Shown one piece after another: positions 8,126 to 11,382 of a DNA stretch of 38,753 nucleotides (positions are counted from its first letter, which is position 1; each line of letters begins with the position of its first letter). Location of the stretch: contig JACMPM010000033.1 of NCBI GenBank assembly GCA_014377485.1, positions 1 through 38,753 on the forward strand, given 5' to 3'. A model generated the notes under the pieces. The model did no database searches, was not told where the DNA came from, and was given only the letters and a program-made list of their open reading frames with translations. This DNA is from Bacteriovorax sp. GTDB lineage: Bacteria; Bdellovibrionota; Bacteriovoracia; Bacteriovoracales; Bacteriovoracaceae. A program made the position numbers and the translations under genes.

Positions 8126-9241
8126 ATGAATTTGTTCAAGAGTAAAGACTACCAAATGATCTTAAGTGCTATTTCTGAAGTAGCCATTATCGCTTATACA
8201 GATAAAAATGGCCGTATTACTTTTGCCAATAAAAAATTCTGTGAGATATCAGGATACACACCAGATGAACTGCATAATAAAGATCATCGCATTTTAAATT
8301 CTGGTTTTCATAGCAAAGAATTTTTCATGTTTATGCATAAAACAATCAGCAATGGACAAATTTGGCGTGGTGAAATACGCAATAAAAATAAAAATGGTTC
8401 TTTTTATTGGGTAGATACTCAAATATTTCCAATTACAGATAGCAATAATCAAATAACGAGCTATGGTTCCATACGATTTGATATTACTGAAAACAAAAAC
8501 ATGCAAAACGCATTGATGCAAATGGAGAAACTAGCTTCACTTGGTGAAATTTCTGCGGTGATTGCTCATGAAATAAATAATCCACTTACTGTCATAGAGT
8601 TAGCTGCTCGCACATTACTAACTGACATCGACAGAGGAGTAACTGACATTGATCATTTCGGCTCAAAAATCAAAATGATTAATAAATCTACAAATCAAAT
8701 ATCAAAAATTGTTCGTGGATTAAAAACAATTTCGAGGAACGGAATATCAGAAGACTTCTCTGTGGTAAATCTAAAAACTTTTATGGAAGATGCCCTTTCC
8801 TTTACCATTGCTAAATGTAAGTACAACGACATTTTTTTTAAAATCGGCGATATTCCTGATATTCAAATTGAATGTCGACCTGATCAATTGTCACAAATTT
8901 TATTAAATTTAATTAACAACGCTCAGGATGCAATTTTTAAAAATCTTGATAAATGGATAGAAATATCATTTGAGGAAAATTTAACTTCAAATCTTCTAGT
9001 TTTAAGAATTGCCGATAGCGGAACAGGTATTTCGGAAAGTATTGCTGAAAATATTTTAACTCCATTTTTTACAACAAAAGAAGTTGGAAAAGGAACTGGA
9101 CTTGGATTGAGTATTTCTAATTCAATTGCCCAACAGCATAACGGAAGATTATATTTTGATAAAACAGTGCCTAACACCACGTTCATATTAGAAATTCCTC
9201 TAAGTCAAAGTGGAATTACAGCTCATAAATTAGAAGCATAA
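8126..9241 (+). CDS. PAS-domain sensor histidine kinase (orphan, cytoplasmic)
   Basis: This 371-residue soluble kinase has a PAS/PAC domain (residues 10-123) of the Aer-like type, with [15 protein letters not shown] and W-GEI-N-K-NGS-YWV. It then has a HisKA-type helix with the phospho-acceptor His148 in VIAHEINNP, and an HATPase domain with N box LINNAQDA (residues 262-269), G1 DSGTGI and G2 [11 protein letters not shown]. It should autophosphorylate in response to a cofactor-bound or small-molecule signal in the cytoplasm. No response regulator gene is adjacent. AAAGGA precedes the ATG. It converges with the broken gene at 9248, only six bases away. Confidence 0.93.
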
Positions 9242-9247
9242 TGTATC

Positions 9248-9586
9248 TTAGGGTCGAGCTAGACGACATTCAATATCTACCATACTCGCTCGCCCCCAGG
9301 CACTGGCCACTAATTTATCTTTGTTTTCCCGAAGAGGGCCTTCCCCATAAATTCTCAAATCGTATTGAACAAGTTAAGCCTCAATCATAAAATGCCCATC
9401 TAGTTTTTCTGTAATATAGGCATAAATACCTTCAACTGAATCAATATTTAATCGAAGCTCGGGTGAAGTTGAAACTCTTGTTTCTGAAACTGGTTCAAGG
9501 TTCTGCCGAATGATACAATCAAGTTCGGCAGAATATAGATCAAAAGAAAATACTATCAAGCATAGGCTGATTAATTTAATTACCAT
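9248..9586 (-). pseudogene. Small exported protein gene interrupted by an in-frame TAA
   Basis: Reading from the ATG at 9586, a signal peptide (LISLCLIVFSFDLYSA) is followed by a Cys and a beta-rich stretch. A TAA at 9374-9376 ends the frame at residue 70. The same frame then continues without a stop for another 41 codons, with convincing protein-like sequence (LVQYDLRIYGEGPLRENKDK, then WGRASMVDIECRL), and ends at a TAA at 9248, next to the convergent kinase. A Cys after the signal peptide and one near the far end could pair in the intact protein. The intact product would be about 112 residues. The start overlaps the upstream gene's stop (ATGGTAA), indicating an operon. Function unknown. Confidence 0.7.
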
Positions 9587-9978
9587 TGAAATTTAAGTCT
9601 AATAAAGAAGGCACCAGCAGCTCCTCCCATCGACGTGGCTTCAGCATCACGAATATCAACCGTGTGAGTATCCTTGTGGCTTGCATCATAAGCATGTTCT
9701 TTTAATAAACCAATCGCTACGGCAAAAGCAAAACCGATTAGGGCAGCTTCATTTTTGCTCACATTAAAAGCATAGTAAGCAAGAAGGGTCGCTAAACTTC
9801 CCGCTTCAGAATGAAGGAATTTATCTTATTGACCAGCATAGAATTGCTTGGCAAGAATGCCAGACACTAAGGTAGAGGCCGCAACCGCAATGGCAATTTC
9901 TCCACCGTCTTTAATTGTAAGTTTATGGGGATCGATAGTTGTAGAGTTTGCTTTTCCACTTAATTGATTAATTTGCAA
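9580..9978 (-). pseudogene. YfiM/DUF2279-like protein gene interrupted by an in-frame TAA
   Basis: The frame from a TTG at 9978 encodes a hydrophobic stretch (AIAVAASTLVSGILAKQFY), then a TAA at 9826-9828, then DKFLHSEAGSL, a second hydrophobic segment and KEHAYD, followed by GGAAGAFF. Without the stop, the pattern matches the YfiM lipoprotein family: a GQDK-x-x-H motif, then small-residue helices, then KE-x-x-D. The TAA falls exactly between GQ and DK of that motif. The part after the stop can start at a later ATG and give 60 residues, but this would lack the N-terminal half. No clear signal peptide is visible at the 5' end, which may also be damaged. The upstream exported gene ends only three bases away in the same frame. 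Confidence 0.65.
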
Positions 9979-9981
9979 ATC

Positions 9982-10374
9982 TTATAAATTATCTTCTCTA
10001 TCAACTGTGACCACAAATTGAACTGTATTAATCTCACCAGACTTTTCAGAGCGTTCGTCGCACTGAAACTCGTTAACTGTTAATAGTCCGTTGTAGCTAA
10101 CAGTAACTCTCTTGGGTAAATCGACCGATGCACTTTTTGGAGCGCAAGCTTCTTCAAAGAGTTCATGGGCCTCTTCTGTATCCCGCGGCATCTTCTCATC
10201 GTTGGATACTAAGTCACCTTCATTAACCCTAAGAATATGAGAAATTTTATACATATGGTCTTCATATTCAAAACTGGTGGCTTTTTGTTCAATAACTCTT
10301 TCATTTGTGGCCGCAAAACCTATAGAATTTAAAGCAAGAAAAAGGACGAGTGAAAGACTAATAGTTTTTTTCAT
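9982..10374 (-). CDS. Small exported protein of unknown function
   Basis: This 130-residue protein has a clear signal peptide (KKTISLSLVLFLALNSIGFA, cleavage after Ala-Ala around residue 22) and no other membrane segment. The mature part is acidic, with two cysteines (EEACAP and EFQCDE) that could form a disulfide in the periplasm. I do not recognise the family. AGGA lies eight bases before the ATG. It heads the small envelope operon with the two broken genes downstream. Confidence 0.75.
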   Translation of the reverse strand: MKKTISLSLVLFLALNSIGFAATNERVIEQKATSFEYEDHMYKISHILRVNEGDLVSNDEKMPRDTEEAHELFEEACAPKSASVDLPKRVTVSYNGLLTVNEFQCDERSEKSGEINTVQFVVTVDREDNL

Positions 10375-10400: not shown

Positions 10401-10420
10401 AACTCATAACTTGATGAGTT
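10401..10420. promoter_or_regulatory. Inverted repeat between divergent genes
   Basis: AACTCAT and ATGAGTT form a perfect 7-base inverted repeat with a 6-base spacer. It lies 27 bases upstream of the exported protein's ATG (10374) and about 115 bases upstream of the plus-strand gene at 10534. It has no T-run. An operator is possible; this is inferred from symmetry and position only. Confidence 0.35.
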
Positions 10421-10533
10421 GTGGAGAAGGCGGGATAATGGTTTAATTATATAGAATAAACAAATATATAATCTAGATACGACTCATTCGATTAAACTAT
10501 GTGTTTCATATAAAAAACTACAAGGTATCAAAA

Positions 10534-11382
10534 ATGCTTAATAAAAAATTCACTTCTATCTTCTACTTTTTTGCCCCCATAATTGCGACAATTACAGGCA
10601 TATTAACTGTTAAAAGCTATGAGATCCCTGTTGGAGTCTTCTATCCCAATCTAGCGGCTATTATCATCGGAATATGTCTTTCGTTAGTCATCATTTACAA
10701 ATGGAAGAATGTTAAACTCGTCCAAATAAAAATAATGGCAATTTTATCATTACTCTTTCTGGTATCTAGTTTTGTTTTTCCAGCTCAACTCAATGTTCAT
10801 CGCTGGATCTCAATTGATGATCTACATATCAATATTTCCTTTATCATTATTCCTGTCATACTTTTCTGCATTCATTGTTTCTTGCAATCCAAAAATTTTG
10901 TCTTTGCCATAATTTTATTTGTCGTTACTGGCATAACTCTCACCATTCAGCCTGATGCCGGCCAAGCTACTTCATTTGCACTTGGGGCCCTAATACTGTT
11001 TGCCATGGATAAAACTAATCTCGCTCTTTTTTTCGGAGCGTTTATCACTGTTGCAATTATAATTGCAAATTCATGGCTTAGAGTTGATCTCCTTGAGCCT
11101 GTTGAATACGTCGAAGAAATTTTATACATGATCAGAAGCTTAGGCCTAATAGGATATTTCGCAATATTACTGACAGCTGTTTTTAGTTTTTATCCTTTTA
11201 TTTCCATGATCACTAAACCAGGCCGGGCATTGCCAATAGCTTTCACTATTTATCTCTTAAGCACTTTCGTCGTAACTGAGTTTGGTCATTATCCGGTGCC
11301 TTTATTGGGAGCAGGAGCCTCACCAATAATTGGATGGTACTTAATGCTGGCTTTTATTTTTAAGCAATCAACTTCTCCTTAA
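10534..11382 (+). CDS. Short SEDS (FtsW/RodA)-like polytopic membrane protein
   Basis: The protein has 282 residues, with about eight membrane helices. Three landmarks fall in the order seen in FtsW/RodA: HRWISI (residues 89-94, like RRWIRLG), QPDAG (139-143, like QPDLG) and PVPLLGAGAS near the C-terminus (254-263, like LPF-SYGGSS). Real FtsW/RodA proteins are about 370-400 residues. Here the part between QPD and the last motif is much shorter, so the large extracellular loop with the polymerase's catalytic Asp seems absent. It may be a diverged relative with another role rather than a peptidoglycan polymerase. The ATG at 10534 has AAGG upstream; a GTG at 10501 is possible. It overlaps the convergent permease gene by 23 bases. 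Confidence 0.55.
   Translation: MLNKKFTSIFYFFAPIIATITGILTVKSYEIPVGVFYPNLAAIIIGICLSLVIIYKWKNVKLVQIKIMAILSLLFLVSSFVFPAQLNVHRWISIDDLHINISFIIIPVILFCIHCFLQSKNFVFAIILFVVTGITLTIQPDAGQATSFALGALILFAMDKTNLALFFGAFITVAIIIANSWLRVDLLEPVEYVEEILYMIRSLGLIGYFAILLTAVFSFYPFISMITKPGRALPIAFTIYLLSTFVVTEFGHYPVPLLGAGASPIIGWYLMLAFIFKQSTSP

Follow-up and report, generated by a model that had tools for sequence, protein, structure and literature searches.

Are the in-frame TAA codons found in two neighboring genes of a Bacteriovorax sp. genome the mark of a lost function, a sequencing fault, or stops that are read through during translation? The question arises at a minus-strand locus in contig JACMPM010000033.1 of assembly GCA_014377485.1 (38,753 nucleotides, analyzed whole and referred to here as the window), where a gene for a YfiM-like protein (gene A) is followed by one for a small secreted protein (gene B). 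A preliminary description of the sequence had offered all three readings, and loss of a shared function is the one that fits best. We conclude that a two-gene envelope operon was probably turned, recently and in this lineage, into a pair of pseudogenes by three nonsense substitutions.

Results

Gene A is an interrupted frame at 9583 to 10374 on the minus strand, with 264 codons if read through and a natural terminator at 9580 to 9582, and over that span it encodes a signal peptide, an N-terminal part, and a C-terminal YfiM-like (Lipocone-type) domain. Its first in-frame TAA, at 9982 to 9984, separates the N-terminal part from the C-terminal domain at a position where both close homologues have a sense codon, and closes an ORF of 130 amino acids (9982 to 10374) with a signal-peptide-like start. 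The second, at 9826 to 9828, lies directly 5' of the DKxxH motif and ends an ORF that runs from a TTG at 9978, after which the frame is open from 9825 to the TAA at 9580. This second stop is in frame between GQ and DKFLH, exactly as had been described; the TTG at 9978 had been taken as the start of the first gene, and the TAA at 9982 to 9984 was consequently overlooked. That start does not stand, as in two congeners the counterparts of the 9982-to-10374 ORF and of the YfiM-like ORF form one frame, a single ORF of 268 amino acids in G005 and of 269 amino acids in the G011 copy on contig C69. Two natural genes in place of one gene A were also considered and rejected, because the parts are fused in both close relatives and in distant ones. 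The window frame contains no frameshift, its only sizeable gap against the congeners being an in-frame one of 12 nucleotides (four codons), and gene A keeps its signal peptide together with an AGGA ribosome-binding site.

Gene B is likewise interrupted (9251 to 9586, minus strand; 112 codons if read through; natural terminator at 9248 to 9250). Its ORF spans 9374 to 9586 and ends at an in-frame TAA (9374 to 9376) at which the homologues are open; a further 41 sense codons then lead to the TAA at 9248 to 9250, which six bases (9242 to 9247) separate from the end of a convergent kinase gene at 9241, all of which agrees with the preliminary description. Its statement that each gene is broken once is right for gene B but not for gene A, which has two stops. 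The genes had also been called coupled, which holds only in part: the window and G005 have them side by side, but G011 carries the two homologues on separate contigs. In the window, gene B begins with an ATG that overlaps the final codons of gene A (positions 9576 to 9590), and about 50 bases separate the two genes in G005. Upstream of gene A, a perfect 7+7 inverted repeat (AACTCAT N6 ATGAGTT, 10401 to 10420) sits between it and a divergent gene and is, by its sequence, a possible operator. The divergent gene (10501 to 11382) encodes a hydrophobic protein of 293 amino acids with no Pfam match.

By alignment and by the gene census given below, the pattern exceeds chance. The read-through frame of gene A aligns end to end with the two congeners at 68% and 64% identity, and that of gene B aligns end to end with an intact homologue at 58% identity. 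Intact gene B homologues of 108 to 116 amino acids occur in G005, G011, G013, and, more distantly, G008; the relatives named here are metagenome-assembled genomes of Bacteriovoracaceae. At the three stop positions the relatives carry three different sense residues, and none of the relatives found shares the stops. Homologues ending naturally at these positions had been named as grounds for refutation, and every homologue found is open there. Orthologues are thus open where the window copies have premature stops, as is expected of pseudogenes. Gene A itself was recovered as a hit with two internal TAAs, and a search of the genome for a second copy or paralogue of the genes found none. In searches of genome contigs, a first scan returned nothing and a second matched only the two congeners.

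About a dozen more distant gene A homologues from the same family have the C-terminal domain in common, usually downstream of a signal peptide and an N-terminal part that varies. All are uninterrupted; in three of them a single stop was flagged, which is the natural end of the ORF. In no relative found does the N-terminal part of gene A stand on its own. A second, distant paralogue type is present in G011 and G009 (L007, 1075 to 1926, and L005, 1060 to 1911); it differs from gene A in its N-terminal part and shares its C-terminal motifs.

The motifs common to the gene A homologues are DKxxH, KExxxD, HTxD or a variant of it, DAxAT, and a late glycine, with D184, K185, H188, K225, E226, D230, D240, and D243 invariant in our alignment (A1). 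These motifs match positions described for the Lipocone superfamily, namely a histidine in helix H2 (within DKxxH), a glutamate in H3, an aspartate in H4, and one more acidic residue where H3 ends (PMC12419801); the alignment shows the residue pattern of the YfiM clade, the assignment of residues to helices being our own. In the window, the segment carrying DKxxH, KExxxD, HTxD, and DAxAT, and with them the predicted Lipocone catalytic positions, is 9583 to 9825 on the minus strand. By motif, the gene A family likely belongs to the YfiM clade of Lipocone, a clade with links to the outer membrane whose predicted targets are lipid head groups (PMC12419801). The family resembles the members of that clade (YfiM-1, YfiM-DUF2279, and YfiM-Griddle; PMC12419801) and PRK10759 in its DKxxH, its KE followed by D, its Asp-rich last helix, and its late glycine, as well as in its signal peptide and its occurrence in bacteria with an outer membrane; it may also share four hydrophobic helices. 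It differs in falling below curated cut-offs, in its longer and variable N-terminal part, in the two stops of the window copy, and in that no outer-membrane barrel was identified adjoining gene A. Pfam gave no match to gene A above its cut-offs, and the commonest match among the homologues, NCBIfam NF008028 (PRK10759, YfiM family lipoprotein), was below cut-off in every case, with a best E value of 0.0022 among homologues and 0.12 for the window copy. A structure model of gene A has four C-terminal helices at a mean pLDDT of 33, too poor for a structure search.

The model of gene B (pLDDT 71.5) is a beta protein with eight strands, and two cysteines are invariant among the homologues. The final strands of the model and the second of these cysteines are encoded 3' of the stop. 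A structure search with the model returned only weak up-and-down beta barrels of the fatty-acid-binding type (TM of about 0.35, not significant), and a search by sequence for a solved structure found none.

A changed genetic code, already considered unlikely in the preliminary description, is rejected on the basis of stop usage, release factors, tRNAs, and a gene census. TAA is the main stop and ends 273 of 455 long ORFs; two release-factor ORFs are full-length and intact (364 codons open in each), alongside a short third; and no UUA anticodon is present among the 27 distinct tRNA anticodons read by ARAGORN in a possibly incomplete assembly with one tRNA at a contig edge unread. For the census, 756 ORFs of G005 served as queries against 1.3 Mb of the genome, and 177 genes (53,451 codons) matched the congener at 50% identity or more. 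Genuine in-frame stops were confined to genes A and B, with none in the 175 other conserved genes, and the event is therefore local to these two. Other apparent stops were rejected: those in rimM- and pyrH-like genes stem from query ORFs with over-extended 5' ends, one belongs to a wrong-strand ORF, and one falls at the end of an aligned kinase. Two candidates from a codon scan (L021, 5251, and L028, 14479) are unlike real proteins. Since the three stops align with three different residues, they point to scattered nonsense mutation and not to a single reassigned codon.

Compared with G005, gene A of the window shows a dN of about 0.24 and a dS near saturation, and the same pattern holds in each segment between stops; conservation does not drop from the N-terminal part to the part after the first stop. 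A low dN against a near-saturated dS on both sides of the stops implies that gene A was functional for most of its history. Lineage-specific amino acid changes across both genes number 33 in the window and 43 in G005 (p = 0.30), and all 26 columns that do not vary among the remaining four gene A homologues are unchanged in the window. As constraint extends to both sides of every stop, no frameshift is present, and the window lineage is not accelerated, the stops are young.

The age of the stops was gauged in two ways, which disagree in strength. Base changes that accumulate neutrally are nonsense in about 4% of cases, and TAA results from about 57% of these nonsense changes. A Poisson relative-rate estimate assigns a probability of about 1.5% to at least three nonsense changes with so little other change under pure neutral accumulation, a rough figure that assumes a clock and ignores both overdispersion and the choice of the locus by its stops. 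In a three-branch codon model, the best omega is 0.11 on the window branch and 0.05 elsewhere, with a likelihood ratio that is not significant; this fit leaves room for about 65 to 80 neutral changes, among which about 2.5 to 3.2 nonsense mutations are expected, and, with synonymous sites saturated, even an omega of 1 on the short window branch is not strongly rejected. Taken together, the two calculations speak for young stops and not for translated ones.

Discussion

Recent loss of the operon is the best reading of these data, accounting at once for the stops, their confinement to a single operon, the differing residues of relatives at the three positions, and the lack of another copy. Two of the nonsense substitutions fell in the YfiM-like gene A and one in gene B. 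With translation ending at 9984, gene A would be reduced to its secreted N-terminal part and would lose the C-terminal domain, putatively of four helices, in which the lipid head-group active site is predicted; an end at 9376 would strip gene B of its final beta strands and the second of its conserved cysteines. Together, the loss of that domain and the truncation of gene B would mean that a function shared by the two proteins was lost, and loss of a shared function predicts that both genes of one operon are broken. The loss would have been recent enough for little further decay. Against it, three nonsense changes should bring many missense changes and some frameshifts, yet no excess of amino acid changes is seen. 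This is a modest surprise, which can be explained by chance together with selection of the locus for its stops, or by selection for loss.

It could be argued instead that sequencing or assembly introduced the stops as base errors, or that they come from a mixed-strain consensus, and that the real genes are intact. The constraint pattern of a working gene does continue past every stop, and the assembly is fragmented (147 contigs), with an estimated contamination of 3.3%. Yet a random single-base change creates a stop in only about 4% of cases, such that three independent errors, all of them nonsense, imply an excess of missense errors that is not seen, and, because no other genuine in-frame stop occurs in some 53,000 compared codons, the assembly is not generally error-prone; we consider this explanation unlikely. 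More improbable is a gene A cut down to a functional secreted N-terminal part (residues 1 to 130), with the C-terminal domain and gene B dead. The position of the first stop, where the conserved N-terminal part gives way to the C-terminal domain, and the retained signal peptide and ribosome-binding site would suit such a product, but the free N-terminal part occurs in no relative found, and the sequence past the first stop has been conserved just as well.

A shade less probable again is low-level readthrough of TAA, in which little full-length protein is made and is still selected. Low dN relative to dS on both sides of all stops, the absence of frameshifts, and the intact motifs are all compatible with it, and, according to one report, in-frame stops at a dN/dS below 1 are widespread among bacteria (PMC7918605). 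It would have to operate in a genome with TAA as its main stop, two intact release-factor ORFs, and no UUA anticodon among the tRNAs read; gene A would require two events in series, and no relative found has these stops. In its most elaborate form, UAA would be read through twice in series in gene A and once more in gene B, which would tune down an outer-membrane lipid-modifying pair without abolishing it; we hold this to be very improbable. The bacterial genes with in-frame stops under purifying selection compiled by Belinky et al. (2021, PMC7918605), whose main set comprises stops common to at least two species, are similar to the present ones in that the stops interrupt an otherwise constrained gene and are apparently short-lived. 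They differ in that three stops occur here, in two adjacent genes and in one genome only.

Recent operon loss, as the preferred reading, would make this locus a clean case of lineage-specific loss caught early, with nonsense mutations ahead of other decay. The gene model is corrected to one YfiM-like gene with two stops in place of a short gene with one, and the locus alone gives no support for recoding. The Bacteriovoracaceae family of gene A is placed, likely by its motifs, close to the YfiM clade of Lipocone.
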